From: Limnothrix sp. RL_2_0
GTDB lineage: Bacteria > Cyanobacteriota > Cyanobacteriia > Cyanobacteriales > MRBY01
DNA: 36,764 nt
Direction of reading: 5' to 3'
Assembly (NCBI GenBank): GCA_012033055.1
Contig: JAAUPR010000033.1
Coordinates: 1-36,764, forward strand
Below the pieces are notes generated by a model, which made no database searches, was not told where the DNA came from, and saw only the letters and a program-made list of their open reading frames with translations. The position numbers were made by a program, and so were the translations under genes. Positions 5,064-32,850 of the stretch are shown one piece after another (the stretch's first letter is position 1; each line of letters opens with the position of its first letter).

Positions 5064-8000
5064 TTAGGAAGGGCCGCGCGTCTGCTGTTGATAGAGGCTG
5101 TAATAACGACCCTGCATGGCCATTAGCTCATTGTGAGTTCCCTGTTCAGCGAGGGCGCCTTCATGCATCATGATGATCATATCGGCATCTTTGATGGTGT
5201 CGAGGCGGTGGGTGATAAAGAAAACGGTGGTGTCATGGAACGCATCTTTGAGGTTATTGCAGACTTGGCGCTCGGTGAGATAGTCCAATGCACTAGTGGC
5301 CTCGTCCAACACCAAAATCCGGGGACGCTGTAACACTGATCGGGCGATCGCAATCCGTTGTTTCTGACCACCAGACAGGGACGATCCCCGTTCTCCAACT
5401 TGCGTGTTATAACCATTGGGCAAATCCTGCATAATGAAATCATGAGCCGCTGCCACCTTCGCCGCATATTCAATTTCTTCCGGCTCCGCCTCTGGATTCG
5501 TTAGGGCAATATTGTCTTGGATTGACCCTTCAAACAACAGGGTTTCCTGTGGCACAACCCCCACCTGACGACGCAGTGAATATAACTCCACTTTGTTCAC
5601 GTCGTAACCATCCACAAGGATTCTGCCCGCTTCTGGTTCATAGAGCCGTGACAGCAATTTAGTGAGGGTACTCTTACCCGCACCACTCTGACCGACGATC
5701 GCCACAAAAGTCCCCGCCGGAAAAATGAGGCTCACATTATCGAGATTGAGCGCACCATGTTTTTTAAACCGGAAACTGACATTTTCATAAACCACCTCAC
5801 CTTTTACTAATGGCATGGGAATGTTGTCTCGGTCTTCTTCGCCCTCTTGGGGATGATCCACGATGTCTGCCAAACGTTCGAGAGAAATGGCGGTATCTTG
5901 GAAATTTTGCCAGAGCTGGGTCAATCGCAAAATAGGTGAAGTGACGTATCCTGCAATAATTCGGAAGGCGATCAATTGCCCTAGGGTTAATACTTCGGGG
6001 CCTTCTAGTACCAAAGATGTCCCTACCCACAGCACTAGCAAACCCGATAATTTATTCAGAAAATTACTAATCGAACTGGAGGCGGTCGAGGTCACCACAG
6101 TATTAAAACCAGCGGAAACGTAACCGGCATATTTCTCTTGCCATTTCCAGCGCGATCGCAGTTCAATATTTTGGGCTTTAACCGTCTGGACACCGGTCAT
6201 CACTTCGACTAAATAGGACTGACTTTGGGCATTCTTTTCGGCTTTGATCCGTAGCTGTTTGCGGATAATCGGCGAAAAAATCAGCGTCGTCACCATAAAC
6301 ACCGGAATGACGGACAAGGCCACCAAGGTCAACACAGGGCTATACCAAATCATGACGAAGATATAGACCAAGGAGAAGACGGCATCGAGAACGACAGTCA
6401 GGGCTGTACCGGTTAGGAAGGAGCGAATTTTTTCTAGCTCGCCCACCCTTGTGGAAATTTCACCGACAGGACGTTTTTCAAAATATTGCAGGGGCAAACG
6501 GAATAGGTGATCAATAATCTCGGAGCCGAGGCTCATATCAATGCGGTTGGTGGTGTCCACAAATAAATTGGTGCGAACAAACCCTAAAATTCCCTCGGCG
6601 ATCGCAAAAATCAATAGCAACGCGCCATAAACCTGCAAGGTATCAGAACTCTGTTGCACGATCACTTTATCGATGATCTGCTGAATGACGAGGGGGTTAG
6701 CAAGGGCAAATAGTTGTACTAAAAATGAGGCGATTAAAACCTCGATCAAGACCCATTTATATTTTTTGATCGAAGGAATAAACCAATTCAACCCAAAACG
6801 TTCTTCGGGGGTGTACTTCGCTTTTTTGAGCAATAGCGCTTCGACTTGGCCTGTTTCATCGCCCCAGCCTTCGATAAAGTCTTGAGGTTTCCGCTTAATG
6901 ATGCCAATCTCTGGTACTGCAACGGTTATTTCTTTGTCGCTAACTTCGTAGAGGATGGCTAGGCTATCGCGCCATTTCACCAAGACGGGCACAGTCAATC
7001 GGGTCACAGTTCCGGTCGGAATTTTGATCAGTTGCGCGTTTAATCCCATCAATTCGGCGATCGCCCCGCTAATCGGTAGAGATAGCACCCCATAACGCTG
7101 GAGCTGTTCATCGATTACCCGCCGAATCACATCCCCCTTAAACCGCATCCCAAAATACTTCGCCAACATCTGAAAACAGGCAACCCCATTCCCTGACTGC
7201 CCCTGCCCTTTCACAAAAGGATAGGTTTTAGGCTGACCGTCCGTCGCCGTTTTCTCTGGGGTGAACCCGACAATTTCTACCGGAGCGTAGGGAATTTCTT
7301 CGGTTTCTGCTGCCTCTGGTTCTGGCTCAACCGCCGCTGGATTGTCCTCAAAGGGGTCTGGAAACGTAGGTGGAATTTCTGCGGGCGTTACGTCTTCCGG
7401 CTCTGGAGGTTCGAGGAGGTGCGTCCATGCAGACTCGGCAAAACCAACTAGTCGCGCAGGCTGAATTCCTTTCACTTCGAGGGTATCTAGGGTTTTTAGA
7501 TCTAATTGACTGCGGGGTGGACAAGCCACTAAACTACCGCCACCACTCACAAACCACAGTTTGTCCGATTGTTTTAATAACCGTTGTTCTGGGCTGTCTT
7601 GGCGATAGGAACCGGGGGCAAGGTGACAGACTTCCGCTTGTTCGATGGCCGAATGGACAATATTTTTCAGGTTGCCGTTAACTTTGGCTTGTTGGGAAAA
7701 GTGGTGGCCGAGCAGTTCAAAGGTTTCAGTAATGGAGCAGCGATCGAGAAATTCAGACCGCAACTCAGGGGATTCTTCTACTAGAGTGAGAAATTCTTGG
7801 CTCGTCAAGTTTAGACAAATGGCTTCGGTGGAGGCGATCGCCGTTTCACAGGCCACCCCCCGTACCGCATTGACCCAACCCAAGACCCCCCCTTCCCGCA
7901 ATAGCCTTAGAGTCATCGGTGCTTGAGTGCGAGGCTCATAGCCCAAAACCCTTGCTTGACCCTGATAAATGATCGATATTTGATGTAATAATTTTCCCCG

Positions 8001-8129
8001 CTGCAAAATCGGCTGCCCCATGCGGTAGCGAAACGCCGTCACTTTGCCACTCAGCTTATCCAATGCTTCCGGCGAAAGCCGACTGAAGGGATCTGTTTTA
8101 CTAAAAAATTCTTTATAACTGAGTTTCAT
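5064..8129 (-). CDS. Type I secretion ABC transporter with cNMP-binding and inactive C39 domains
   Basis: A 1021-aa exporter that combines four domains. Residues ~10-130 are a cyclic-nucleotide-binding-like domain. Residues ~300-430 are a C39 bacteriocin-peptidase fold whose active site is lost: the catalytic-Cys position reads GNGVACFQML, with Asn where DCG is expected, and the His and Asp segments (WRDSLAILYEV, VAVPEIG) also lack the triad. Residues ~450-740 are the ABC transmembrane domain. The ATPase follows, with Walker A GQSGAGKST (~811), signature LSGGQKQR (~916) and Walker B ILVLDEATSALD. A dead C39-like domain is typical of HlyB-type transporters, which recognise a substrate without cleaving it. 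A Pro/Glu-rich linker spans ~240-290. The upstream PPIase and downstream HlyD genes complete an export operon. No substrate gene is visible here. Confidence 0.92.
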   Translation of the reverse strand: MKLSYKEFFSKTDPFSRLSPEALDKLSGKVTAFRYRMGQPILQRGKLLHQISIIYQGQARVLGYEPRTQAPMTLRLLREGGVLGWVNAVRGVACETAIASTEAICLNLTSQEFLTLVEESPELRSEFLDRCSITETFELLGHHFSQQAKVNGNLKNIVHSAIEQAEVCHLAPGSYRQDSPEQRLLKQSDKLWFVSGGGSLVACPPRSQLDLKTLDTLEVKGIQPARLVGFAESAWTHLLEPPEPEDVTPAEIPPTFPDPFEDNPAAVEPEPEAAETEEIPYAPVEIVGFTPEKTATDGQPKTYPFVKGQGQSGNGVACFQMLAKYFGMRFKGDVIRRVIDEQLQRYGVLSLPISGAIAELMGLNAQLIKIPTGTVTRLTVPVLVKWRDSLAILYEVSDKEITVAVPEIGIIKRKPQDFIEGWGDETGQVEALLLKKAKYTPEERFGLNWFIPSIKKYKWVLIEVLIASFLVQLFALANPLVIQQIIDKVIVQQSSDTLQVYGALLLIFAIAEGILGFVRTNLFVDTTNRIDMSLGSEIIDHLFRLPLQYFEKRPVGEISTRVGELEKIRSFLTGTALTVVLDAVFSLVYIFVMIWYSPVLTLVALSVIPVFMVTTLIFSPIIRKQLRIKAEKNAQSQSYLVEVMTGVQTVKAQNIELRSRWKWQEKYAGYVSAGFNTVVTSTASSSISNFLNKLSGLLVLWVGTSLVLEGPEVLTLGQLIAFRIIAGYVTSPILRLTQLWQNFQDTAISLERLADIVDHPQEGEEDRDNIPMPLVKGEVVYENVSFRFKKHGALNLDNVSLIFPAGTFVAIVGQSGAGKSTLTKLLSRLYEPEAGRILVDGYDVNKVELYSLRRQVGVVPQETLLFEGSIQDNIALTNPEAEPEEIEYAAKVAAAHDFIMQDLPNGYNTQVGERGSSLSGGQKQRIAIARSVLQRPRILVLDEATSALDYLTERQVCNNLKDAFHDTTVFFITHRLDTIKDADMIIMMHEGALAEQGTHNELMAMQGRYYSLYQQQTRGPS

Positions 8130-10165: not shown

Positions 10166-11562
10166 GTGGAGATCTGTCTTTTAAAGGTAAGATTTTTGGA
10201 GATAAGTTTATGTCACATCGATGGTGACGGATGGCGATCGCCGCTGGTGGGAGATTTTTTGGGTATGTCTGCAAATCTACGCTCTCAAGTAATGGCGTTT
10301 CAACGGCGCAATCAGAAAAATATTGAGATTCCACCGATATCTCTCCAGAGCCAAAATTCTGATCGGGAGACAAGTCTTGCAAAAATCATTTGTGAACGGA
10401 ATGAAGCAGACTTTTTGACTTTTTTGTTGACGGCAATCTGTACACAGCAAAGCGTAATATTACTCAACCCTCAATGGCAACAGTCTGAGCAAAATTTTCT
10501 ACAGCAAAAATTAGGTATTACTCGCTTCAGTTCAACGGAAATAGCCTTAGATTTGCCGAGAAATAAACATTCTTTTTACTGTCTCATTCCGACGGGCGGG
10601 ACATCGGGAAAAGTTAAATTTGCGATACATACATTAGAAACTTTATCGGCTTCAGTGGCGGGATTTCGACAATTTTTTAGCTTAGATCGAGTGAATTGTT
10701 TTTGTGTTTTACCGCTGTGTCATGTGAGTGGTTTGATGCAGGTGATGCGATCGCTGCTCAGTGGCGGTGAGTTTTTTCCGGGGGATTATGGGTCATTAAA
10801 ACAGGGGACGTTGCCAGAAAAAGATTTCTCTGATTTTTGTATTTCCCTTGTGCCTACACAGTTACAGGTTTTGTTGGAGGTTTGCCCAGAGTGGTTGACT
10901 CAGTTTCGGTTGGTGCTAATCGGTGGTGCGCCTCCATGGCGATCGCTGTTGGAACAAGCCCGCAAATATCAGCTTCGGATCGCCTTGACCTATGGCATGA
11001 CGGAAACGGCTTCGCAGGTGGTGGCTCTCTCATCAGAGGATTTTTTAAATGGAAAAACTTGTGCGGGTCAAGTGTTACCCCATGCTCAGGTTGAACTATC
11101 AGAATCTAGACAAATTTCGATTCAATCAGAGTCTTTGTTTTTAGGGTATTACCCCGAAATGAATATTCAAAAAAACTAGAAACAGATGACCTTGGCTATT
11201 TTGATGAAATGGGATATTTACATATTTTAGGTCGTCAAAGTCAGAAGATTATTAGCGGTGGCGAAAATATTTATCCTGCGGAAATTGAAGCGGTAATTCA
11301 GGCTACTAATTTGGTGATAGATGCGGCGGTGTTAGGCATAGCTGATCAATACTGGGGGGAAGCGGTAATTGCGGTTGTTGTCCTGAAAAAAGATTCTACG
11401 ATTGAAGCCATAAAAACGGCGATCGCCGATCAACTGAGTCGTTACAAACAACCGAAAAAATGGTTTTTGGTGACAGCCCTGCCCCGTAATGCCCAAGGCA
11501 AACTCAATAGAGCAATCCTGAAGGAAATGATAGGAAAAAACTATCAATCATTAGAAAGTTGA
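10166..11562 (+). CDS. menE: O-succinylbenzoate-CoA ligase (frame broken as sequenced)
   Basis: MenE activates o-succinylbenzoate with ATP and CoA in phylloquinone synthesis, the quinone of photosystem I. The first part (to 11179) contains the AMP-binding P-loop LIPTGGTSGKVKFAIHT and ALTYGMTETASQV. The second part, in another frame, starts just after 11175 with KLETDDLGYFDE, then the hinge GYLHILGRQSQKIISGGENI and the C-terminal catalytic lysine region PRNAQGKLNR. The break is in an A7 run (11169-11175). One more A would give a continuous ~465-codon gene of normal length. The true start is unresolved: GTG at 10166 opens the frame, a TTG at 10196 and an ATG at 10265 are alternatives, and no strong ribosome-binding site decides. 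The gene stands alone, with no other men gene nearby. Confidence 0.85.
11169..11176 (+). other. Frame break in menE at A7/C, a phased A-AAA-AAC heptamer
   Basis: The upstream frame reads CAA AAA AAC TAG, so the heptamer A_AAA_AAC (11170-11176) is in exact phase for a -1 slip. After the slip the next codon is CTA, which continues the conserved MenE sequence. Either one A was lost from an A8 run (mutation or sequencing), or slippage restores the frame. Confidence 0.75.
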
Positions 11563-13216: not shown

Positions 13217-16200
13217 ATGGCTCCGAATGATATTGCCTCGATTATTGAAAAACTCCAGTCTTTTGTAACGATACAGACTCAGGCTAAATGGCAGTTTTAT
13301 CTGGGTGATGGGGTTGGGGAGATAGATTATGAAGCCTTTGAGCCAGAGCAATTACAGGCAGTTCAGCTCAATGAAAATAACTATGGGATTTTTCCTAAGG
13401 GTGGTAAATTAGCTTGGTTTTATCAAAAATTTGTAATTCCCCACGACATCAACCAATACGAAATTGAAGGTTTGCATTGTCGGCTAAATCTGACTTGGTG
13501 GGCTGGTTCTGCGTCGGTTTTTGTGAATGGTAAATTAGTTTGTGAAGGGGATTTATTTGATTCTTCAACGCGACTTTCCCTCTCGCCTAATGTACAACCG
13601 GATGATGTTTTTGAGGTGGCGATCACCCTTATCAGCCCTTCCCACGACATCGGCGCTTTGATGAAATCGCAATTGATTTTTGAGTCGGATGATTTTGCGC
13701 AACCAGATGCAGGATTTGTAGCGACAGAATTGCAGATTTTAAGTCAGTATCTTGAAAAATATCAGCCGGAATTGTTACCGCAAGTTGCAACAGCATTACA
13801 GACATTGCCAATAGAAACCTTTCAGAATCGCGCGGAATTAGATCAAGCTTTAGCGATAGTTCGAGAGCAATTAATTCCCCTTGCAGCACCAATTAAAACG
13901 CGACAATTTCATGTGATGGGTCATGCTCATTTAGATATGGCTTGGCTCTGGACAACTGATGAAACTTGGGAAGTAGGGCAACGAACTTTTTCTTCTGTTT
14001 TAAATTTGCAAAAAGAGTTCCCTAAATTAACATTTGGACATAGCACTCCTGCCCTCTACGAATGGATAGAAAATAATCGCCCAGATTTGTGGGCAAAAAT
14101 AACTGAAGCCGTGACAAAGAATAACTGGGAATTATTAGGAGGAATGTGGGTTGAACCGGATGTAAATTTGGTGTCAGGGGAGTCACTTATTCGGCAATTT
14201 CTCTATGGTCAGCAATATTTTCTGGAAAAGTTCGGTAAGATTGCACCCATCGCTTGGCTCCCGGATACCTTTGGTTTTCCGCAGCAACTCCCGCAAATTT
14301 GTAAACTCTGTGGCATCGAAGCTTTTGGCACAGGCAAACTCCATTGGAATGATACGAAACCTTTTCCCCACGGGTTGTTTAAGTGCGATCGCCTGATTCG
14401 ACAGAACTTCTAACTTTTATGGCGCCGCCGAATGTCACGGGGATTATGGATACTAACCCGATCACCATGACAAATTACGCGTTGAAGTGGGAGGAACAAA
14501 CGGGATTAAAAGATATTTTTTGGATTCCCGGTGTCGGCGATCATGGCGGTGGCCCCACGAAAGATATGATTCAGGTTGCCCAAAAATGGCGGCGATCGCC
14601 CTTCTTCCCAGAGCTAAAATTTTCGACGGCTGCAAACTTTTTAAATCAGGTAAAAGATACGCTAGATTTGCCCATTTGGGATGACGAACTTTACCTCGAA
14701 TTACATCGCGGTTATTACACTGTCCACCGTGATCAAAAAGAGTTTAACCGTCGTTGTGAAACTCTATTGCGACAAGTGGAAATCTGGACGGCGATCGCCA
14801 ATCAATTAGGATCTAAATTTGAACATAAAGCAATTATTAAAGACCTCTGGAAAAAAGTTTTATTTAATCAATTTCACGATATTTTACCCGGCACATCTAT
14901 ACCTGAAGTGTTCACCGAAGCGAATCGCGATTGGCAATATGTGATCGACACAGGCGAAGCGTTATTAGAGAAAGTTTATGCGGCGATCGCCATCCATATC
15001 GACTTTCCAGCAGCACCTCATCCCAATGCCAAACCAATTTTATTATTTAGCGATCTCAATTGGGAGAGAATAGAAATTATCAATTTAGAGATTGACGATT
15101 TAGCAGTTATTTATGATCATATCGGACAGAAAATTGATAGCCAGATTTCTCAAGAACTATTCGCTGATAACACTTGGAAAAATACAATTTCTTTTATTGC
15201 TAAAGTGCCATCAGTAGGCTATTCACTATATTGGTTGATTGCAGACTCTCAAGCCTCAGCCCAACGAGAAGATGATTTGATTTCTGAACCAGAGTTTATT
15301 TTAGAAAATAATTATTTAAAAGTTGAGATTGATACGAAGACTGGTGATATCAAACAAATTTTTGATAAACAAAATCAACGACAAACTTTATCCGAGGCAG
15401 GTAATCAGTTACAAGCATTTGAAGATAAAGGTCAATATTGGGATGCATGGGATATTGCGCCAGACTACGAAGAAAAGCCATTACCACCAGCAAAACTTCT
15501 TTCTATTAAATGGCAAGCAAAAAATAAGATTTGTTCTGTTATTCGTATAGTTCGTCAACTGAATAAATCAACTTTTACCCAAGATTATATTCTTGAATCC
15601 CATAGCCCCATCCTTAAAATCAATACCGTTGCAGACTGGCAAGAAGAGCAAATTATTCTCAAGGCCACTTTTCCACTGACCATTGAAAACCCTTACTGTG
15701 ATTATGAAGTACCTTGTGGTGTGATTCGGCGATCGCCCCAAGCGAATCCTGAAAAATGGGAAGTTCCTGCATTACGATGGGCAGATCTAAGCGAGGATAA
15801 CTACGGGTTTAGTCTGATTAATAATAGCCACCATGGTTATGATGCAAAACCAAATCAATTGCGTTTAACATTACTTAAAAGTCCGATTTGGCCAGATCCT
15901 CAAGCTGATCGGGGTGAGCATCATTTTTCCTATGGGATTTATCCCCACAAAGGTAATTGGCAAGCCGCAAAAACAGTTCACCATGCCAAGGCTTTTAATA
16001 CGCCCTTACGAGTATTTTTCCCAAAAAATAAAAATGAATCACCCAACTTATTACAGTCGAGCCATTCATTTTTAAAATTCAATTCAAATAATCTAGTTCT
16101 TCTAGCCCTAAAGCAATCAGAAACTGATAAAAGTTTGATTATTCGTTTTTATGAAGCCTATGGTAAGTTGACAGAGTTAGATTATCAAAGTGATTTTGGC

Positions 16201-16302
16201 TGGCAAATCACACAAGAATTAGATGCCCTAGAAAATCCGCTAATGAACGAACTTTCAACTACGGTTCAGCCATGGCAAATCAAAACTTATTCTGTTGAAT
16301 AA
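13217..16302 (+). CDS. GH38 alpha-mannosidase (frame broken as sequenced)
   Basis: A class II alpha-mannosidase of glycoside hydrolase family 38, about 1028 aa when the frame is restored. The first part (13217-14413) has an N-terminal accessory domain, then the catalytic opening GHAHLDMAWLW with zinc-binding His and Asp, the nucleophile region GGMWVEPDVNLVSGES, and KLHWNDTKPFPH. The second part (from ~14384) continues RSPDSTELLTFMAPPNV and holds the remaining catalytic and beta-sandwich domains to SVQPWQIKTYSVE-like end (here TVQPWQIKTYSVE). Between them one G is missing: AAGTGCGATCGCCT should read AAGTGGCGATCGCCT to give the Trp-Arg expected after HGLFK. No signal peptide is seen, so a cytosolic Ams1-like mannosidase that degrades free oligosaccharides is likely. 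Confidence 0.88.
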
Positions 16303-17078: not shown

Positions 17079-18071
17079 ATGGCTCAGTCACAAAAACTAA
17101 AGGATTTGGGCGAGGCGGAAATCTTGCAACGGCTACAAAAATTTTGCCCCGCAGAGGTGATTGGCGACGATGGAGCAGTGCTGGAAATTACCGCAAATCA
17201 TCGGCTGGTGGTGACTACAGATGTGTTGGTGGATGGGGTTCATTTCGGCGATCGCACAACCCCGGCAGAAATGGCTGGCTGGCGAGCAGTGACCGCAAAT
17301 TTGTCGGATTTGGCAGCAATGGGGGCAACTCCGGTGGGGATCACAGTGGGATTATCGTTGCCGTTGGACACGGAATTAGTTTGGTTGGAGCATTTGTATA
17401 AAGGTATCGAGGCTTGCTTGCAAACCTATGGCACACCTTTGGTTGGGGGAGATTTGACGCGATCGCCCACAAAAACAATTGCGATTACAGCGTTTGGGGA
17501 AGTCTTGCCAAAAAAGGTGATTCGGCGGGATGCAGCGCAAGTGGGAGAGGTGATCGTGGCGACAGGCTTTCACGGAGATTCGCGGGCGGGTTTGGAACTA
17601 CTTTTACAGCCAGAAACAGGACAAGATTTGGCAGAGGGCGATCGCCAACATTTGATCCTTGCCCACCAAAAACCGATGCCGCGTTTGGACGTTTCAGCTT
17701 ATTTAAAGGGTATTAAAACCGAGCGAAATTTTGCGGGGATGGACAGTAGCGATGGCTTGGCGGATGCGGTGTTACAAATTTGTGAAATGAGTCATGGTGG
17801 GGCAATTATTCATGAGTCACAAATTCCAATTTCACCTGCACTTTCACGCTATCAATCATCCGAAAAGGCTTTGGAGTGGGCATTATATGGTGGCGAAGAT
17901 TTTCAACTCGTTCTAGCTTTACCCCAAGATCATGCCGAAAAGTTAGTGGCAAAATTCGGTAATGGTGCTGCAATTATTGGTGAAATCACTGCTGAACAAA
18001 CCGTGAAATTGATTGAGGAAAAAGGGCGATCGTCGATCCTTTCTCGCCAACAAGCCTTTCAACATTTTTAG
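17079..18071 (+). CDS. thiL: Thiamine-monophosphate kinase
   Basis: A 330-aa kinase that phosphorylates thiamine monophosphate to the active cofactor thiamine diphosphate, the last step of the pathway. It belongs to the PurM/AIR-synthase-like ATP-binding family. Signature segments are IGDDGAVLEI (near residue 28), VVTTDVLVDGVHF, LSDLAAMGATPVG, VGGDLTRSP, and late in the protein MDSSDGLADAV and LYGGEDFQLVLALP. I take the ATG at 17079 as start; a TTG two codons earlier also opens the frame. Length fits the family. The stop codon interlocks with that of the convergent Trypco1 gene (4 bp shared). Confidence 0.96.
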   Translation: MAQSQKLKDLGEAEILQRLQKFCPAEVIGDDGAVLEITANHRLVVTTDVLVDGVHFGDRTTPAEMAGWRAVTANLSDLAAMGATPVGITVGLSLPLDTELVWLEHLYKGIEACLQTYGTPLVGGDLTRSPTKTIAITAFGEVLPKKVIRRDAAQVGEVIVATGFHGDSRAGLELLLQPETGQDLAEGDRQHLILAHQKPMPRLDVSAYLKGIKTERNFAGMDSSDGLADAVLQICEMSHGGAIIHESQIPISPALSRYQSSEKALEWALYGGEDFQLVLALPQDHAEKLVAKFGNGAAIIGEITAEQTVKLIEEKGRSSILSRQQAFQHF

Positions 18072-18442
18072 TGATTTTCTTCTGCTTTTGGCTTATTAGG
18101 GAAAGAACATTCGACGGTGATTTTGAGATTCGATTCGGCACTGCCTTTCGTGACATAGGGAACGCCCATTTCTCCGGCGACTTGGATGCCAAATTCTAGG
18201 GTGACTTTATCGACATTGGCGCGGGCAACATCACTAAAAGCGTCGAGGGTGTATTGAGTATAGGTGGCGATTGTTCCCTTCATGGCTTGGAAGTGTTTCA
18301 TGACTTCCTCGGTTGCGCCTTTCTCTTCGCGGCTTTCTTCTGTGGTGTCGACGGTTGGGAGATTGGGAGCGGTCACGTCGGCGGGGATTTCGACATAAAT
18401 AACAGCGCCGTTGTCGAGGGTCATGGGAGCGAGCTGGGTCAT
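18068..18442 (-). CDS. Trypco1 (CU044_2847) domain protein
   Basis: A 124-aa protein recognisable as the CU044_2847 family, renamed trypsin-co-occurring domain 1 (Trypco1). The core is VDKVTLEFGIQVAGEMGVPY followed by SAESNLKITVEC, and the N-terminus has the usual short strand GAVIYVEIP. In published comparative work (Kaur, Aravind and colleagues), Trypco domains are proposed adaptors or effector-associated modules in NTP-dependent bacterial conflict systems, often beside proteases. Here the neighbour, 66 bp away and divergent, is a caspase-STAND protein, so a shared promoter region and a joint role are plausible (inference). The open frame extends upstream to 18550, but that would overlap the neighbour's start. 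The ATG at 18442 (MTQLAPMTLDNG) fits better. There is no signal peptide. Confidence 0.8.
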   Translation of the reverse strand: MTQLAPMTLDNGAVIYVEIPADVTAPNLPTVDTTEESREEKGATEEVMKHFQAMKGTIATYTQYTLDAFSDVARANVDKVTLEFGIQVAGEMGVPYVTKGSAESNLKITVECSFPNKPKAEENH

Positions 18443-18508
18443 GGTGTAGAAAAGAAAAAGTTCTAGTTGTAGTGTAGGGCTAAGTTCTTTCTGTGTTGCC
18501 GAAATGTT

Positions 18509-21217
18509 ATGAGCCGTGATGCGCTGATTGTCGGGATTAGTCAGTATCAATATCTAAAAAAGCTGAATGCTCCGGCTGTGGATGCGGAGGCGATCGCCCA
18601 ATGTCTAGAAAAAGATGGAGATTTTCGGGTGACGCGGCTACCGGAAAAGATTGTCACGGACGATGGTCTAAAAAAGCCTGAGGTTTCGGGGACACAGAGT
18701 GTTAGCCAAGATAAATTAGAAGCGGCATTAGAAAAACTCTTTTTGCCGGAGAGTTCCCAAGCGCCGGACACAGCACTATTTTATTTTTCGGGGCATGGGC
18801 TACCAGATAGCTCAAGACTGAATGACGAAAAGGGTTTTTTAGCGGTTAGTGGGACAGATCCAAAAAATCCGAAAACAGGGATTTCGTTTCGCTGGTTGCA
18901 ATGTCTACTCGCGAAAAGTCCGGTAAAACAACAAATTATTTGGCTGGATTGTTGCCACAGTGGCGGTGTAATTATCAATGTCGGGGCGGCGAATCCGGGG
19001 AATGGGTCAAGTCGAGATCGGTGTTTTATTGCGTCATCGCGGGATTTTGAAAGTTCTTGGTCGGATCTAAATAGTCCCTACAGTGTGATGACAAAGGCTT
19101 TGTTGGATGGGCTGGAACCCAATCGTTTACCGGGGCGTTGGATTGATACGTTTGCGCTAGCGGATTATGTCAATCAGCAACTCCAAGGGGAATTACAAAC
19201 GCCGATTTGTACGAACTTTGGGGAGGCAATTAAGCTCACGCGCTCAGATCAGGTGGAAGCGGTAGAAAAGCCAGACACTCAAACGGATAGTGGTATTTGT
19301 CCTTACAAGGGGCTGGAGTTTTTTGATTGTAATGACGAAGACCCCAAATATTTTTTCGGGCGGGATAAGTTGGTCGATGAGCTATTGGACAAGGTGCGCA
19401 CGTCGAATTTTATGGCCTTGGTGGGTGCGTCGGGCAATGGTAAGTCTTCAGTGCTGAGAGCGGGATTATTGCATCAACTGAAGATTGGGCGACGGATTAC
19501 GGGTAGTGAAAATTGGCAAATTCGGATCACGCGACCCGATAAAAATCCGCTAGAAAATCTGGCGTTAGCTTTTGTGGCTGAGGATTTGTCGGATCTGGAT
19601 CGGGCGGCAGAATTGGGCAAAGCGAAAGGATTGCTAGAGGAAGGAGCGGAGGGTTTAAAGCGATTAATTCAGGTGTCTTCTGCACCGAGGGTGATTCTGG
19701 TGATCGATCAGTTTGAGGAGGTGTTTACCCGCTGTGAAGGTCAGGAGGAACGGGAAGCGTATTTGGCTTGTTTGATGGGGGCTTTGGCGGGAACGGAAGC
19801 AAAGCTCTGTCTGATTATTGCGATGCGGGCAGATTTTGTTGGGAAATGTTTAGAGCATGAATACAGTGGGCTAGCGCAACGGGTACAGGAAAATATGATT
19901 TCGGTGTTGCCCATGCAAAAGGCGGAACTGGAAGCGGCAATTTGTCAGCCTGCAAACCAGGTGGGGCTAGAGGTAGAGCAAACCTTGGTGACGCAAATGC
20001 TTAATGAAATTGCGGGTGCGCCGGGGAGTTTGCCGTTGTTGCAATATACGCTCAAGGAACTGTGGCAGCGGCGGGAAAAGAATCAACTGACTTTCGCGGC
20101 ATATCAGGAGCTGGGTGGGATTACGGGGACGCTGGATAAACGGGCGACGGAAATTTATAACGGTTTTGGGACGAAGATAGAAAAGGATGCGGTGCGGCAT
20201 ATTTTTCTGAAGTTGACGCAGCTAGGGGATGGGACAGAGGACACAAGGCGGCGGGTGTTGCAGAGTAATCTCATCGCTGAACCGAAATATTCAGCGGCAT
20301 TAATCGAAAAGGCGATCGCGAAACTGGCTGATCCAGAAAACCGTTTAATCGTTACTAGCGAAGTAACTCGGAAAGGAGCAAAGGAAGAACGGCAGGCCAT
20401 TGTAGATGTTGCCCATGAAGCACTGATTCGGAATTGGCGGCTTCTACGGCAATGGCTCGGAGAAAATCGGGATCGGCTACGGCAGCAACGGAAAATTGAG
20501 GCGAGCGCGGAGTCATGGCGGGAGCAAGGGCAGAAAAAAGGTTATCTGTTGCAGGGGTTGCCGCTCAATGAGGCAAAGCTATTTCAACAAGTACATCAAG
20601 AGGATTTTCCGTTATCAGATATTGCACGGCAGTTTATTAAAAAAAGTCTGCGGCATAGGCAAATCACGCGACTAAAGACAGCAAGTTGGTTGTTGATTCC
20701 GGCTGTGGTCGTTGGTGGTTTTATCGAAGCGCAATATCGAGAAAATAGCGTTAAGCAAGACTATGCGATGATTGCCAGCAACTCAGGAGACTATGGCGAA
20801 AGAAAGGCTGCACTAGATCTGATCAAAGGGTGTAAAGAACGAAGAGAGATTGACTGGTTAGCACCATATTTAGCGGAGCGAGTTTTTGGTAATTGTCGGA
20901 CATTGCAAAGGGCCAACCTCAGAAATGCCGACCTCCGTTTTGCCGACCTCATAGATGCCGACCTCAGCAAAAGTATATTTCTGGCTACTGATTTACGACG
21001 TGCAAAAAACGTGGCTCAAGAGCAATTCGTCGGAGCAGAACGACCATTCCTCTGCAATGTCGCTTTTCCAGAAAATATCATTGACATTGACCCAAATCGA
21101 GATTGCGATCAACTTTCTCAAATCCTTGCAGATCGAGATCTTTGGATGAATTTAGAAGATGCTCAAGACTATGTGAATAAAGCAAGAACAAAAGTATTCC
21201 CCGAACTTGAAGATTAA
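18509..21217 (+). CDS. Orthocaspase - STAND NTPase - pentapeptide repeat protein
   Basis: A 902-aa multidomain protein. Residues 1-245 are a peptidase C14 (caspase/orthocaspase) domain with an intact dyad: His96 in FYFSGHG and Cys149 in LDCCHSGG. Residues ~262-640 are a STAND-type P-loop NTPase introduced by CPYKGLEFF and YFFGRD. Walker A is GASGNGKSS (306-314), Walker B VILVIDQFEE (395-404), followed by the helical region GAPGSLPLLQYTLKELW and VDVAHEALIRNWRLLRQW. A hydrophobic helix lies near 726-744 (WLLIPAVVVGGFIEAQ). A short run of pentapeptide repeats (ANLRNADLRFADLIDADLSK) lies at 800-820, where WD40 or TPR sensors often sit. The architecture is NLR-like: C-terminal sensor, NTPase switch, protease output. 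The trigger and the protease target are unknown. It lies beside a Trypco1 gene and toxin-antitoxin genes. Confidence 0.9.
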   Translation: MSRDALIVGISQYQYLKKLNAPAVDAEAIAQCLEKDGDFRVTRLPEKIVTDDGLKKPEVSGTQSVSQDKLEAALEKLFLPESSQAPDTALFYFSGHGLPDSSRLNDEKGFLAVSGTDPKNPKTGISFRWLQCLLAKSPVKQQIIWLDCCHSGGVIINVGAANPGNGSSRDRCFIASSRDFESSWSDLNSPYSVMTKALLDGLEPNRLPGRWIDTFALADYVNQQLQGELQTPICTNFGEAIKLTRSDQVEAVEKPDTQTDSGICPYKGLEFFDCNDEDPKYFFGRDKLVDELLDKVRTSNFMALVGASGNGKSSVLRAGLLHQLKIGRRITGSENWQIRITRPDKNPLENLALAFVAEDLSDLDRAAELGKAKGLLEEGAEGLKRLIQVSSAPRVILVIDQFEEVFTRCEGQEEREAYLACLMGALAGTEAKLCLIIAMRADFVGKCLEHEYSGLAQRVQENMISVLPMQKAELEAAICQPANQVGLEVEQTLVTQMLNEIAGAPGSLPLLQYTLKELWQRREKNQLTFAAYQELGGITGTLDKRATEIYNGFGTKIEKDAVRHIFLKLTQLGDGTEDTRRRVLQSNLIAEPKYSAALIEKAIAKLADPENRLIVTSEVTRKGAKEERQAIVDVAHEALIRNWRLLRQWLGENRDRLRQQRKIEASAESWREQGQKKGYLLQGLPLNEAKLFQQVHQEDFPLSDIARQFIKKSLRHRQITRLKTASWLLIPAVVVGGFIEAQYRENSVKQDYAMIASNSGDYGERKAALDLIKGCKERREIDWLAPYLAERVFGNCRTLQRANLRNADLRFADLIDADLSKSIFLATDLRRAKNVAQEQFVGAERPFLCNVAFPENIIDIDPNRDCDQLSQILADRDLWMNLEDAQDYVNKARTKVFPELED

Positions 21218-23199: not shown

Positions 23200-24036
23200 A
23201 TGGTGATGCCAAAGATTTTCAATCTCAAAACTATCGGGACATATTTGCTCTTGGGGGCGATCGCCGTCGTGATGCTGTTCCCACTGTTATGGCTGTTGAG
23301 TACATCGCTCAAATCCCCCACCGAAAACATCTTTAGCTTTCCGCCCCAGCTCATCCCCGAAACCCCTACCCTGCAAAATTTCGTCACCGTCTGGCAAAAC
23401 CACCCCTTCGGACGCTACCTCTTCAATAGCACCCTGATTGCCGTCCTAACTGTCGTTTTCAATTTACTTTTCTGTTCCCTCGCCGCCTACCCACTCGCAC
23501 GACTAGATTTTCGCGGACGAGACATCATCTTTGCCACCGTCGTTTCGACGATCATGATACCCTTCCAAATCGTCATGATTCCCCTGTTCGTCCTCACCGT
23601 ACAGCTCGGTTTACGCAATACCTATCTCGGCATCATTTTTCCGAGCCTAGCCTCCGCCTTCGGTATTTTTCTCCTGCGCCAAGCCTTTCAGGGCGTGCCT
23701 AAAGAACTCGAAGAAGCAGGCAGAATTGATGGCTGTTCAGAACTGGGCATTTGGTGGCACATCATGATTCCGGCAGTGCGTCCGGCGTTAATTACCCTCG
23801 CAATCTTTGTCTTTATCGGCTCATGGAGCGATTTTCTTTGGCCGCTGATCGTCATTGATCGCCCCGAATTTTATACCCTACCCCTCGGCGTTGCGACCCT
23901 TGCGGGACAGTTTTCCCTCGATTGGCGTTTGGTTGCCGCCGGATCCATTATTTCGTTATTACCCGTAATGACTTTGTTCGCCTTTGTCCAGCAATACATC
24001 ATCCCCACCGACAGCGGCAGCGGTGTAAAAGGTTAA
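23200..24036 (+). CDS. Carbohydrate ABC transporter permease (MalG/GgtD type)
   Basis: A 278-aa inner-membrane permease with six predicted transmembrane segments and the EAA loop EEAGRIDGCSELGIWWHIMI (about residues 190-210) that docks to the ATPase. MalG-type features are the early TSLKSPTENIFSFPPQ and the segment NFVTVWQNHPFGRYLFNST. It is typical of the second permease of a sugar or glucosylglycerol importer. The start ATG at 23200 (MVMPKIFN) is preceded by TTACGGGCGA, without a clear ribosome-binding site; a second ATG lies two codons in. No partner permease, binding protein or ATPase gene is nearby, so the transporter parts must be encoded elsewhere. The stop interlocks with the holB stop. 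Confidence 0.92.
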   Translation: MVMPKIFNLKTIGTYLLLGAIAVVMLFPLLWLLSTSLKSPTENIFSFPPQLIPETPTLQNFVTVWQNHPFGRYLFNSTLIAVLTVVFNLLFCSLAAYPLARLDFRGRDIIFATVVSTIMIPFQIVMIPLFVLTVQLGLRNTYLGIIFPSLASAFGIFLLRQAFQGVPKELEEAGRIDGCSELGIWWHIMIPAVRPALITLAIFVFIGSWSDFLWPLIVIDRPEFYTLPLGVATLAGQFSLDWRLVAAGSIISLLPVMTLFAFVQQYIIPTDSGSGVKG

Positions 24037-26165: not shown

Positions 26166-28987
26166 ATGTTTAAAAAGCTCTTTGGTGATCCCAACGCCCG
26201 CAAACTTAAAAAGTTTCAACCCCTTGTTGCTGAAATCAAGCTATTAGAAGAGGATTTTAAAAAACTTACAGATGAAGACCTTGCTCGCAAGACCCTCGAA
26301 TTCCGCGAAAAACTAGACAAATCAGATAGCGACGAAGAAACAGAAGAAATCCTCGACGAAATCTTACCCGAAGCCTTTGCCCTAGTCCGTGAAGCAGGTG
26401 GCAGAGTCCTTGGTATGCGCCATTTCGATGTCCAACTCCTCGGAGGCATCGTACTCCACAAAGGCCAAATTGCCGAGATGAAAACCGGGGAAGGGAAAAC
26501 CCTCGTAGCAACATTACCAGCCTACCTTAACGGCCTGACAGGCAAAGGCGTTCACGTGGTCACAGTGAATGATTACCTCGCCCGCCGAGATGCCGAATGG
26601 ATGGGGCAAGTACACCGATTTTTAGGCCTGAGTGTGGGCTTAATTCAGTCTTCCATGGCTCCCGCCGAAAAGATCGAGAACTACAACTGCGACATTACCT
26701 ACACCACTAACTCCGAGCTGGGCTTTGACTACCTCCGGGATAACATGGCGACGGCGATGCAAGAGGTCGTACAGCGACCTTTTAACTATTGCATCATTGA
26801 CGAAGTAGACTCGATCCTCATCGACGAAGCCAGAACGCCTTTGATCATTTCCGGTCAGGTGGAACGACCCACCGAGAAATATCTCCAAGCAGCTCAAGTG
26901 GCAGCACAGCTTGTTCCTCAAGAAATAGAGGATGGCCCCGGCGACTACGAAGTGGATGAGAAAGCCCGTAATGTTCTCATGACAGACGAAGGTTTTGCCA
27001 AGGCAGAACAGCTTTTGGGCGTGACAGATCTTTACGACGAAGAAAATCCTTGGGCTCACTACATTTTTAATGCGGTTAAAGCGAAAGAACTGTTTAAAAG
27101 AGATGTGAACTACATGGTGCGTGGCGAAGATGTCATGATCGTCGATGAGTTCACTGGCCGTGTGATGCCGGGTCGTCGCTGGAGTGATGGTCTTCACCAA
27201 GCCATTGAGGCTCAGGAAAATGTACCTATCCAAAAGGAAACTCAGACTCTAGCCAATATCACTTACCAAAATTTCTTTTTGCTCTACCCGAAACTATCTG
27301 GGATGACCGGCACAGCAAAAACGGAAGAGACAGAATTTGAGAAAGTTTATAGTCTCGAAGTAACAATTATTCCGACAAACCGCAAACCCCAGCGCCATGA
27401 TTGGCCTGATGTGGTCTACAAAAATGAGCGGGCAAAATGGAAAGCGGTCGCAGAGGAAGCTGCGGAAGAATATGCGAAAGGCCGTCCTGTACTTGTCGGT
27501 ACGACCAGCGTGGAAAAGTCTGAGGTGATTTCTCAGTATCTTCAGGAGCTCGATATTCCCCATAATTTGCTCAACGCTCGTCCTGAGAATGTGGAAAAGG
27601 AATCTGAGATTGTTGCACAGGCAGGTCGTAAGGGGGCGGTGACGATCGCCACTAATATGGCAGGTCGAGGCACGGATATTATCCTTGGGGGTAATGCCGA
27701 ATATATGGCTCGTCTCAAGATGCGCGAATATTTTATGCCCCAGATTGCGAAGCCAGAAGATGACGGTGGTTTTGGGGTAGCGGGCAATGGCAATGGTGGT
27801 TCTGCGCCCCAAGGTTTTGATGTAAACGCGCCGAAGAAAAAGAAAAAAACTTGGAAGACGACCCTCGATATCTATCCCACCGAACTATCGAAAGAAACGG
27901 AGCAAATGCTTAAGGATGCGGTGAAGTTTGCGGTAGAAAAATATGGTGAACAGAGTTTATCAGAGTTAGAGGCGGAAGAAAAATTGGCGATCGCTCCGAA
28001 AATGCCCCCACTGACGATCCGGTTATCCAGAAATTACGGGAAGTGTATCAGGCGATCGAGCATACCTATAGCTCCTTAACCAGCACCGAACATGACGAAG
28101 TAATTGGCAACGGAGGCTTACACGTCATGGGTACTGAGCGCCACGAATCCCGACGTATCGATAACCAGTTACGAGGTCGTGCCGGACGCCAAGGAGACCC
28201 CGGTTCCACTCGCTTTTTCTTGAGTCTCGAAGATAATTTACTGCGGATCTTTGGCGGCGATCGCGTCGCTGGCCTGATGAATGCCTTCCGAGTCGAAGAA
28301 GACATGCCCATCGAATCCAAAATGCTCACCGGTTCCCTCGAAGGTGCCCAAAAGAAAGTAGAAACCTTCTACTACGATGCTCGGAAGCAAGTCTTTGAAT
28401 ACGACGAAGTAATGAACAACCAGCGTCGCGCCATTTATGCCGAGCGTCGCCGCGTACTCGAAGGATTAGACCTCAAAGAACAAGTCATTCAGTACGCCGA
28501 AAAAACCATGAGTGAAATCGTCGAAGCCTACGTCAACCCAGAACTTCCCCCCGAAGAATGGGATCTCGAAAAGCTATTGAATAAATCCAAAGAGTTTGTC
28601 TATCTCCTCGAAGATCTTCAGGCCAAAGATATCGGAGACATGACCGTGCCAGAAATGAAGATATTCCTCCATGAAGAAGTCCGCAAAGCCTACGATCTCA
28701 AAGAAAGTCAGGTAGACCAAAAGCAACCCGGCCTGATGCGCCAAGCAGAGCGATTTTTCATTCTCCAGCAAATTGATACCCTATGGCGGGAACACCTCCA
28801 AGCTATTGATGCCCTCCGGGAATCGGTCGGTTTACGGGGTTATGGTCAAAAGGATCCCCTAATCGAATATAAGCAAGAAGGCTATGAAATGTTCTTGGAA
28901 ATGATGATCGATATTCGTCGGAATGTTGTCTACTCCTTGTTCCAATTCCAACCCCAAAGACAACCCCAGCAAGCCCAAACTGTCTAA
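26166..28987 (+). CDS. secA: Preprotein translocase ATPase SecA (frame broken as sequenced)
   Basis: SecA drives protein export through SecYEG. Part one (26166 to ~27995) has Walker [39 protein letters not shown] (DEAD-type Walker B), and [20 protein letters not shown]. Part two resumes in another frame ([18 protein letters not shown], then [20 protein letters not shown]) and contains [20 protein letters not shown] and the scaffold ending before [10 protein letters not shown]. The join is just after a HIP1 site, GCGATCGCTCCGAA: one added T gives ...LAIASENAPT and an uninterrupted ~940-aa SecA, normal for cyanobacteria. Since SecA is essential, a real break is unlikely. There is no C-terminal zinc-binding Cys cluster, as in plastid-type SecA. 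A terminator follows at 29013-29043. Confidence 0.95.
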
Positions 28988-30022: not shown

Positions 30023-31096
30023 TTACAGCTCAGAGTCAGGGGGGTGTTCCGTGTGCAGTTGATCAAGCTGTTGCCGTAGACCCTCAAGAATATTTTGCTT
30101 TTCCGTCTCGGCGATCGCCTGATTTTGCTGAATCTCTAAAATCTGTTGACCAATATTTAGCTCCCGAATCGGATCCCAATCCTTATCCGTAGCAGCTTCA
30201 AACTTAGACCAATCGAGGTTATTCAACACCGATTGATCTTGATAAGTTAGAAAAAAATCACGTATTTTTTGCTTTAATTCCTCCGGTAGTTCGCTATCGT
30301 AGGCGATCGGATCAGAAGGGATCATGGGAGATGTCCAGACGATGATTACATCTTGATACTTATCAGGAAATTTTTCTTGGAAACGAGCCAACCCCTCACT
30401 ATTGTTGGTGGCAATATCAACCTGTTGTTCCGCGATCGCTGAGACCGTTGCTTCGTGACTACCCAAAAATGAAACTTTCTTAAAATGCTGGAGCGGATTA
30501 ATAGAATTTTCAGCAAAAATATAATACATCGGCACAAGGTAGCCAGAGGTCGAATTCAGATCATTAAAGGCAAAACCAAGATTTTGAGCATTCTCTTTGT
30601 TGAGGAGATATTGCACCTTATTTTCTGCTTGGGCATTCTTTAGCCAAGGGTGATCGCGATGGGTAATAAGGTGAGCATAATATCCCCTTTCTCCTTGACT
30701 AGAAACCGTTGAAACAAATGCTTCTGCGTCCGCCAACTTAGCCGCTTCAATATAAACTTTGCCGCCAAACCACGCAAGTTGAATAACATCGGCACGCATG
30801 GCCTCAATAAGACTCGAATACTGCGTCGCGAAAAAAGGTTTGACCGGTAGACCAATGGCCGTAGACAGGTCTGCCAAGAAAGGATTCCAGTTGGATTCTA
30901 AATCTTCTGCCAACTCCGTAGTGAGGATACCGAAAGTAAGCTCTTTTAGCTCAGGATCGACCGTAGTAGTTTCCGTCTCTTTTTTGCAACTTTTTAGCAA
31001 GCTGCTGCTGGCGATCGCATGGTAAATAAAAACAATCGCTGAAGAAAGTGCCGCCGACCCATAATCATGATTTCTTATCAAAGTGTTCTGCTTCAT
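30023..31096 (-). CDS. PhnD-like phosphonate/phosphite-type substrate-binding protein
   Basis: A 357-aa periplasmic binding protein of the PhnD family. After a hydrophobic N-terminus ending SSLLKSCKKE (a possible lipoprotein Cys near residue 37), the mature part shows LTFGILTTELAEDLESNWNP, VIQLAWFGGKVYIEA and LNSTSGYLVPMYYIFAENSI, all typical. The C-terminus is a Gln/Glu-rich coiled coil (residues ~325-350), unusual for a transport protein. No phnC or phnE gene is near. It is divergent from a histidine kinase 47 bp away, which suggests a ligand-sensing partner rather than a transporter. The ligand is unknown: phosphonate is only the family name. Confidence 0.85.
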   Translation of the reverse strand: MKQNTLIRNHDYGSAALSSAIVFIYHAIASSSLLKSCKKETETTTVDPELKELTFGILTTELAEDLESNWNPFLADLSTAIGLPVKPFFATQYSSLIEAMRADVIQLAWFGGKVYIEAAKLADAEAFVSTVSSQGERGYYAHLITHRDHPWLKNAQAENKVQYLLNKENAQNLGFAFNDLNSTSGYLVPMYYIFAENSINPLQHFKKVSFLGSHEATVSAIAEQQVDIATNNSEGLARFQEKFPDKYQDVIIVWTSPMIPSDPIAYDSELPEELKQKIRDFFLTYQDQSVLNNLDWSKFEAATDKDWDPIRELNIGQQILEIQQNQAIAETEKQNILEGLRQQLDQLHTEHPPDSEL

Positions 31097-31143
31097 GCAA
31101 AGAACTGCTGTAATGAAGAGAAGAATCTTTTATTGTAAATTTT

Positions 31144-32850
31144 GTGAGTTCTTCTCCCCCCCCATTTAAACCCATTGTCAGCCAAATTCTGCTTGGTTTT
31201 GGAATTTCTCTGGCGGTGGTCGGTTTTGGTACATTGTGGATGAATCATCTGCTGATTCGCTCTAATCTAGATCGTCAAGTCAAACGTCGAGCAGAGTCCA
31301 TTACACGAACACTGCAATTATCATCAGAAGGTCTCATTGAACTGGGTTATATCTCTATGCTGGAGAGGGTGGTCACCAATTACGGCGCATTGCCCGATGT
31401 GACAGAAGTGGCAATTATCAACCCTGATGGCAAAACCATTACTCACAATCTCGTCACCCAAATTAATCGCCCCTTTGCGGAAATTCACCCCATGTTGATG
31501 GATTCGGTGGAATTAGCCTCCGAAACTGGAGAGGTGCAGAGTCAACATCTACGGCTTAATGGGCGATCTGTTTTTGTTGAAATCTTACCGTTCAGTAATT
31601 TAATGTTCGGGGTTGATGGACGACGGGGGGTGGCGATCGCCATCATCGATTTAGAACCAATGCAAGCAGAAGCCCGCCGAGCTTTAATCATTTCGAGCCT
31701 GATCATTTCCTCCGGAATTTTGATAATTCTAGTCATTTTAGGAATCCTCATACACCGCATCATCCTCGCTCCCCTCTCCAAACTCAACATCGCCTTAGAA
31801 GCCAGTCAAAATAGCGGCGACTTCATTTTTTCCCCGGGCAAAATCAATAATGAAATCACATTTGTTGCCAAAACTTTTAAAGAAATATTTCAACAATTAG
31901 CCTCCTACGAAGTACTAGAAAAAGAGATCCAGCAGCGTAAAGAAGTTGAAATTGCACTCCGAGATAGTGAAGCAAAAGAGCGGCAAAAAGCAGATGAATT
32001 AGCAACAGCCATTACGAAACTTCAGGAAACACAAATACAGCTTATCCAGACAGAAAAAATGTCTAGTCTAGGGCAAATGGTTGCAGGTCTTGCCCACGAA
32101 ATAAATAATCCAGTCAACTATATTCACAACAATTTACTCTATGCCAAACAATACTTAATTGACCTATTAAAGTTAGTCCATGCCTATCAACAAGATTTTC
32201 CTGATGGCACTGAAAAGATCAACCAACTACTAGAAGAAACAGAGTTTGACTTTATTGAAAAAGATGCCGAAAAGCTATTCAAATCAGTATCACATGGTTC
32301 AGACAGAATTAGAGAGTTAGTTGTTTCCCTACAAAATTTTTCACGGCTCGATCAGTCAGCAAAAAAATTAGTTAAGCTCCACGAAGGCATCGACAGTACT
32401 TTATTGATCTTAAAAAATCGTTTAGAACGTCTTGATAATTCTGGGTTAAATGGCATTAAAATCATCAAAAATTACAATGCGATTCCTGCCATCACCTGTT
32501 ATGCTAGCCAACTGAATCAAGTTTTCATGAACTTGCTTAGTAATGCTATTGATGCCCTCAGTAAAAAAAATGAGGCGGTGATCACAATCTCGACACAATC
32601 CCTTGAGCAAGACGGGGTGCGCATTACCATCGAAGATAATGGCTCAGGGATCAAACAAGAAATAGGCGATCGCCTCTTCGATCCATTTTTTACAACCAAA
32701 GAAGTAGGGCAAGGAACCGGTTTAGGTTTATCTATTAGCTACAAAATTATTGTCGAGCAACACAAAGGCAAATTATATTATGATTCTGTCATCGGCAAAG
32801 GGACAAAATTCATCATTGAAATCCCTTACAATGTAAACAATAATCCCTAA
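31144..32850 (+). CDS. Membrane sensor histidine kinase
   Basis: A 568-aa histidine kinase. Transmembrane helices at ~14-33 and ~180-204 flank a periplasmic sensor of ~145 residues that contains [19 protein letters not shown], resembling a PAS/Cache-like fold. A HAMP-like linker and coiled coil (~210-310) follow. The phospho-acceptor is His in [15 protein letters not shown] (~319), the N-box is [15 protein letters not shown], and the G-boxes are [10 protein letters not shown] and [12 protein letters not shown]. The GTG at 31144 is the start. No receiver domain is fused and no response regulator lies nearby. The divergent PhnD-like gene may encode its periplasmic ligand receptor (inference). 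Confidence 0.92.

Follow-up and report, generated by a model that had tools for sequence, protein, structure and literature searches.

What does a binding protein of the phosphonate-transport type do when it is encoded beside a sensor histidine kinase and without the genes of a transporter? This question is raised by a locus of the cyanobacterium Limnothrix sp. RL_2_0. The locus lies in a stretch of 36,764 nucleotides, called the window here, which is one entire contig (G000:C182; JAAUPR010000033.1) of a draft genome of 4.13 Mb in 200 contigs. Two divergent open reading frames (ORFs), already recognised in an earlier note on this DNA, encode a PhnD-type periplasmic binding protein and a histidine kinase (Table 1). 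We consider it probable that they form a receptor and its kinase, with a phosphonate as the most likely ligand. The window holds 45 ORFs of at least 100 amino acids, and a Pfam scan covering 38 of them gave no match for PhnC, PhnE or a receiver domain (Response_reg), in agreement with the earlier statement that neither phnC/phnE nor a response regulator is near.

The strongest argument for a receptor-kinase pair is independent of the window locus, because it comes from the family of the kinase sensor and from the clade in which PhnD is its neighbour. Using kinase residues 1-319 as a query, matches at 1e-15 were obtained in 77 of the 291 genomes of the order, many of them in the kinase half only, and outside the genus the E-values reached 9.6e-85. 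All 36 places outside the genus that match in the sensor half were examined in two sets (20 + 16). Directly upstream and on the same strand, 32 of them carry an SsuA/NMT1-type binding protein (14/16, and 18/20 in the first set, a count that is partly circular since the adjacency profile derives from 16 of the neighbours in L114-L132). The naming by Pfam is independent of this profile: all 16 tested upstream neighbours were assigned to NMT1 or NMT1_2, and the four other scanned ORFs were not. The PhnD profile had no match in the first 20 of these loci at 1e-3. In the loci of the sensor homologues the two genes often overlap by 13 nt if each is taken to begin at its first possible start codon. 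Moreover, a scan of named records gave 47 sensor loci, 45 of which have such a binding protein directly upstream, including L195 with an upstream match that is a 131-aa fragment. After dropping 12 loci (7 + 5) with identical sensors, 71 distinct sensors remained, and 65 of them have an adjacent SsuA/NMT1-type binding protein. Among 24 control kinase ORFs, taken from 20 hand-picked rather than random loci with a similar kinase half only, two have a binding-protein match within 1.5 kb, and one of these is directly adjacent (L217, divergent and PhnD-like). Because of this difference between 65/71 and 2/24, the kinase family is linked to binding proteins, and in the clade of the window kinase PhnD takes that place: where the usual partner is missing beside the kinase, PhnD stands there in all four cases found. 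A kinase tree (quick method, midpoint root) groups the three PhnD-linked kinases that it includes with those linked to binding proteins (SH-aLRT 82), and the sensor homologues are 30-43% identical over the N-terminal half (15 rows outside the genus).

The pairing itself is conserved. PhnD matches at E 1e-20 or better were found in 34 of the 291 order genomes, the window's own counted, and 26 loci with closer matches (L046-L071, two with internal stop codons) were examined. This kinase stands divergently beside PhnD in two of them (G072 and G089, same genus), PhnC- and/or PhnE-cluster genes flank PhnD in 16, a protein of one further cluster follows it directly in six, and two have neither transport genes nor signalling partners. 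No phnC or phnE was found beside the PhnD of L058 and L066. In the class as a whole, PhnD matches at 1e-60 occur at 40 places in 38 of 388 genomes. We looked at 20 of the 40 listed places and found both phnC and phnE beside PhnD in 13, phnC alone in one, none in two, and a BTAD/AAA regulator gene at a distance of about 0.2-0.4 kb in three; in one more, G361 from another family, the same kinase is again divergent beside PhnD. The pair is therefore present in four genomes of two families, and phnC and phnE are absent beside all four paired PhnDs. In a tree of 47 PhnDs, from which L069 (a fragment) and L077 and L082 (long branches) were omitted, the four kinase-linked PhnDs form one clade (100/100). 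The conservation that the earlier note had looked to as a check on its pair is thus found. Transport partners in relatives, which it had counted against a sensor, do accompany more distant PhnDs (16/26; 14/20) but none of the four paired ones. A hidden transport operon in close relatives was considered and rejected, as the operons belong to the more distant proteins. Within the genus, represented by six genomes, PhnD and the kinase sensor occur in the same three genomes, and the other three have neither.

By sequence, the binding protein of the window is a PhnD. It matches PF12974 (Phosphonate-bd) over the whole profile (E=7.1e-61) and reaches 267.6 bits with TIGR03431 (PhnD) against a curated cut-off of 261.1, which the PhnDs of L046 and L047 also pass. 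The nearest solved chains in phmmer are 3n5l from P. aeruginosa (2.9e-66) and 3p7i from E. coli (4e-61), whereas the arsenic-related proteins ArrX and AioX give 1.1e-06 and 4.7e-05. The AlphaFold model has a pLDDT of 83.9. In E. coli PhnD, the residues described for the binding of aminoethylphosphonate are H157 and, in the cap, T14, E177 and D205 (PMC5700983). Nine of ten compared E. coli positions are identical in the window protein, including the three cap residues. Y93, Y139 and S182-T183-S184 of the window protein are likewise identical to E. coli PhnD, as they are in L046 and L047; in the E. coli protein, Y47, Y93 and S127-S129 have roles in ligand binding. The D/T/E cap is kept in the three aligned copies of the genus and, judged by eye, in L256. 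Because the equivalents of H157 and of the cap are identical to those of E. coli, the ligand is probably a phosphonate, for example 2-aminoethylphosphonate. The ligand does not follow from conserved pocket residues alone, since AioX, ArxX and ArrX have pocket residues in common and differ in their ligands (PMC5908839).

The earlier note had regarded the Gln/Glu-rich coiled coil at the C-terminus as unusual for a transport receptor. This did not hold: the two C-terminal helices align with the ends of 3n5l and 3p7i (phmmer), and in alignment A2 they line up with each of the other 20 PhnDs, to which the transport clade contributes 14. We therefore rejected them as a signalling feature. The gap of 47 bp between the genes is correct as the distance between ORFs, but doubtful as the true intergenic distance. 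A lipobox-like LLKSC occupies PhnD residues 33-37 in the called frame. The PhnDs of L046, L047 and L256 start with M[HN]RQ[QR]FL or MKRQQFIRLLL before they reach a lipobox-like LKGC, and in the window this start is matched by another frame, from the ATG at 31062 (MGRRHFLQRLFLF). A frameshift of the draft sequence within the signal peptide is likely, and is the simplest reading because the contig has other split genes; the true gap would then be about 81 bp. SecA (26166-28987) is split over two overlapping frames, probably by a draft frameshift, and a GH38 alpha-mannosidase lies on two overlapping ORFs (13217-16302). The N- and C-terminal parts of an AMP-binding protein likewise lie on two neighbouring ORFs (10166-11562), and draft frameshifts are possible in both of these cases as well. 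The intergenic sequence is partly alike between the two same-genus pairs.

The H, N, G1, F and G2 motifs of the kinase are intact; the HisKA match (23.6 bits) stays under its Pfam cut-off of 26.9, and no HAMP domain was matched by Pfam. The periplasmic sensor of roughly 145 residues described in the earlier note corresponds to about 146 residues between two hydrophobic segments (TM1 at about residues 12-34 and TM2 at about 181-204, from hydropathy). The AlphaFold model of residues 1-299 (pLDDT 83.6) has a mixed alpha/beta domain set between two long helices. Foldseek matches to this model include the sensors of WalK, KinD, DctB and DcuS, with E-values of 1e-4 or better and query TM-scores of 0.3-0.6, and we therefore read the sensor as a Cache/PDC-like domain, a family name that is our own interpretation. 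As to a downstream partner, receiver-domain genes overlap the end of Cache-like kinase genes in three relatives (L125:7300-7761, L126:2935-3417 and L127:2905-3354), which suggests what the partner of the window kinase may look like. A Photo_RC gene lies near the receiver/kinase locus in L125 and L127.

Table 1. Features of the PhnD-kinase locus (positions in the window; residue numbers of the proteins as called)
Feature	Position	Strand	Basis or remark
PhnD-type periplasmic binding protein, probable lipoprotein	30023..31096	-	357 aa as called; PF12974, TIGR03431, 3n5l/3p7i, AlphaFold
C-terminal helices 304-324 and 330-350 of PhnD	30047..30187	-	AlphaFold model; ordinary PhnD ending
D262 = E. 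coli D205, cap	30311..30313	-	alignment; PMC5700983
E234 = E. coli E177, cap	30395..30397	-	alignment; PMC5700983
H214 = E. coli H157	30455..30457	-	alignment; H157 named in PMC5700983
S182-T183-S184 = E. coli S127-S129	30545..30553	-	alignment
T60 = E. coli PhnD T14, aminoethylphosphonate cap	30917..30919	-	alignment; cap per PMC5700983
PhnD signal-peptide region, apparently frameshifted	30986..31062	-	three-frame reading against L046, L047, L256
Divergent intergenic region	31097..31143	.	47 bp between ORFs; with a PhnD start at 31062, about 81 bp
Sensor histidine kinase, GTG start, 568 aa	31144..32850	+	HATPase_c 4.3e-27, HisKA 5.4e-5
Cache-like periplasmic sensor, about residues 35-180	31246..31683	+	hydropathy; AlphaFold and Foldseek
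AHEINNP H-box, from residue 317, presumed phospho-acceptor histidine	32092..32112	+	motif reading
Catalytic ATPase domain, residues 455-562, N/G1/F/G2 motifs	32506..32829	+	Pfam and motif reading

Taken together, the most economical account would be that a Cache-type kinase learns of the ligand through the binding protein. In the periplasm, the PhnD lipoprotein would capture a phosphorus compound, for which a phosphonate such as 2-aminoethylphosphonate is the most likely candidate, and the closed, loaded form would dock on the kinase at its Cache-like periplasmic domain. Docking would alter autophosphorylation of the kinase, and the signal would go on to a response regulator encoded elsewhere. 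The usual partner of the kinase family, of the SsuA/NMT1 type, would here have been replaced by a PhnD taken from the C-P-lyase-linked transport PhnDs. Sequence comparison provides the conserved pairing, the linkage of the family to binding proteins, the intact kinase motifs, the kept cap and the absence of phnC/phnE at the four pairs; from these we infer physical contact, the ligand, the direction of the response and its output. The receptor-kinase sensor proposed in the earlier note is supported by the recurrence of the pair and by the linkage of its sensor family.

Several observations weigh against this account. The pair is known from only four genomes, and in G361 the kinase gene is cut near the start of the contig. 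Six of the 71 sensor homologues have no adjacent binding protein (L127, L133, L196, L197, L276 and L291, a 160-aa fragment), and the layout of the window pair is divergent, whereas the SsuA-linked family has a co-directional pair. We looked for divergence of the sensor as a sign of a change of partner and did not see it: compared with the SsuA-linked set, the sensor is no more diverged than the rest of the kinase (ratio 0.85; 0.84-0.90 elsewhere, TM2 0.64), and it thus bears no visible mark of adapting to a new partner. At the position aligned to E. coli 68, E. coli and every row of the transport clade have a serine, the window has V, and L046 and L047 have T. Without PhnJ, moreover, the use of a phosphonate signal would lack an explanation. 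Finally, the genome of the window does hold PhnE-like and PhnC-like genes in other places.

These genes deserve a closer description. A fused double PhnE is encoded on contig C31, where the whole ORF scores 310.6 bits and is over the cut-off, and the best PhnC-like ATPase, on contig C126, scores 253.5 bits, just under the cut-off of 266.1. The fused PhnE is present in 6/6 genomes of the genus, and so is a different binding protein of the TIGR04553 type (on contig C64 in the genome of the window); since PhnD occurs in only 3/6, these two do not follow PhnD. G029, a genome of the genus without PhnD, has one further PhnE over the cut-off. In G361 the sole PhnE-like find is a fused ORF at E 1e-15 or better, with each half under the cut-off, and in 3/6 genomes with the SpoIIE-type pair described below no PhnE match at E 1e-25 or better was found. 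The genome-wide PhnE search does not list the window contig, despite a lone PF00528 permease there (23200-24036), and the PhnC-profile match in that contig is part of a C39-type ABC exporter (5064-8129). PhnJ (PF06007), the C-P lyase component that was sought, was not found in the genome of the window, where other C-P lyase genes were not sought, nor in any of the six genomes of the genus or the six SpoIIE-pair genomes. It is present in 13/13 tested genomes picked for a transport-clade PhnD, out of 17 such genomes, a test that left out G361. The PhnD-like proteins on contigs C188 and C64 were rejected as close kin of the window PhnD, being only 23-28% identical to it. The C64 protein is the one of the TIGR04553 type, and C188 holds a separate PhnD-like/kinase locus (L077:5842-9023), with the kinase split between two frames. 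Here and in L081 and L217, a separate divergent PhnD-like protein is encoded upstream of kinases whose input part looks helical.

Three other explanations have to be weighed. It is a serious possibility, though one that falls short of likely, that the two genes form a receptor-kinase pair as proposed and that the ligand is phosphate, phosphite, a phosphate ester or another oxyanion. This overlaps with the account above. The differing ligands of AioX, ArxX and ArrX speak for it, as does the failure to find PhnJ in the genome of the window; on the other hand, the D/T/E cap for aminoethylphosphonate (PMC5700983) is kept in the three genus copies and in L256, and the PhnDs of the window, L046 and L047 all exceed the cut-off of the PhnD profile.

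We regard it as unlikely that a small molecule is bound directly by the Cache-like domain of the kinase, with PhnD as a mere target gene or buffer instead of the receptor. Cache-like domains often bind ligands directly, the Foldseek matches include the ligand-bound sensors of DctB and Tlp3, and divergent genes are often a regulator and its target. However, a binding protein adjoins nearly all distinct sensors of the family, mostly as an overlapping gene pair, which argues for a partnership and not for occasional regulation. Finally, that PhnD still serves as the transport receptor of a distant importer, for instance one built from the fused PhnE of C31 and the PhnC-like ATPase of C126, with a kinase that is incidental or regulates uptake, is quite improbable: such genes do exist, in part also in G361, and the PhnD cap residues are kept, but the fused PhnE and a TIGR04553 binding protein are in every genus genome, PhnD is in half of them and always together with the kinase, and the kinase family itself is tied to binding proteins.

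A PhnD linked to signalling is also seen in another arrangement. In the six loci mentioned above, all from one genus, the cluster protein that directly follows PhnD was identified in two as a Tll0287-like/HAMP/SpoIIE protein, and PhnD plus this protein is a possible second PhnD-linked signalling design. The loci are L059:7381-10694, with a CxxCH motif in the membrane protein, as well as L061, L062, L063, L065 and L067. A small gene follows the SpoIIE-type protein in five of the six, and the one tested gave a weak STAS match just under the cut-off. In these PhnDs the cap threonine is replaced by alanine in the four copies that cover the position. They form a clade of their own in the tree of 47 PhnDs (100/100). 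A single origin of the kinase-linked and the SpoIIE-linked PhnDs was considered; their grouping has a support of 60/91 in the first tree and 77/65 in the larger one, which does not settle the matter. The PhnDs beside a BTAD/AAA regulator gene (L257:636-5221, L258 and L270) have no phnC/phnE next to them, and two of these genomes also hold a separate phnC-phnD-phnE operon. Apart from PhnD, one ORF of 744 aa on contig C126 (L079:990-3224) joins an ammonium transporter domain to a histidine-kinase-like part. In the window, a 902-aa protein with a caspase domain, an nSTAND1 NTPase and pentapeptide repeats lies beside an opposite-strand ORF with a trypsin-co-occurring domain (18068-21217).

How does the pair compare with known systems? 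The cyanobacterial pairs of an SsuA/NMT1-type protein and a Cache-like kinase share a homologous kinase sensor with the window pair; the window differs in that the partner is PhnD and is divergent instead of upstream on the same strand. TtrS-type kinases have a PhnD-like domain as their input, fused to the kinase, whereas PhnD is a separate protein here, and the TtrS profile matches the window kinase only at residues 280-544. LuxQ and TorS are the kinases of two further binding-protein systems. In TorT-TorS, LuxP-LuxQ, XylFII-LytS and BctC-BctE alike, the binding protein acts on a sensor kinase (PMC5908839, PMC9602780), but the families of both binding protein and sensor differ from those of the window. 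AioX-AioS-AioR and ArrX-type systems sense arsenic oxyanions, with the binding protein as the first signalling component, and they too have a gene for a binding protein of the PhnD superfamily beside a sensor kinase gene (PMC5908839). The window pair may work by analogy with AioX-AioS. Nevertheless, it is not a member of that family, because its binding protein is of another subfamily, the C-P-lyase PhnD type, and because no response regulator was found in the ORFs scanned, whereas the AioXSR and ArrXSR clusters include one; in addition, the window genes are divergent. With the C-P-lyase-linked PhnDs (TIGR03431), such as that of E. coli, the window protein has sequence likeness, cap residues, C-terminal helices and a profile score over the cut-off in common, but it has no phnC/phnE beside it, no PhnJ was found in its genome, and it is paired with a kinase. 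C-P lyase in the genome is described as a feature of group 1 PhnDs (PMC5700983), one that the genome of the window, searched for PhnJ, does not show. In a literature search of titles and abstract openings, we found no description of or name for such pairs in cyanobacteria.

By one count, only about ten cases of a binding protein that activates a sensor kinase have been characterised (PMC9602780), and in 2018 the AioX orthologues were stated to be the only signalling members of their family (PMC5908839). With a true PhnD encoded next to a kinase, such systems would gain a receptor of the phosphonate type. As a plausible wider picture, which we hold tentatively, cyanobacteria may have a family of kinases whose periplasmic receptor can be exchanged, and a true, phosphonate-binding PhnD may have moved from transport to dedicated sensing of environmental phosphonate. 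The kinase described here would account for one such move at the least, and the Tll0287-HAMP-SpoIIE phosphatase possibly for an independent one, in genomes without PhnJ (9/9 tested of the signalling-linked set, G361 being left out). The comparison with the SsuA-linked family would be a natural experiment in which one kinase sensor accepts different receptors, and the pair allows one to test directly why a phosphonate-type pocket is kept in a cyanobacterium that lacks PhnJ.

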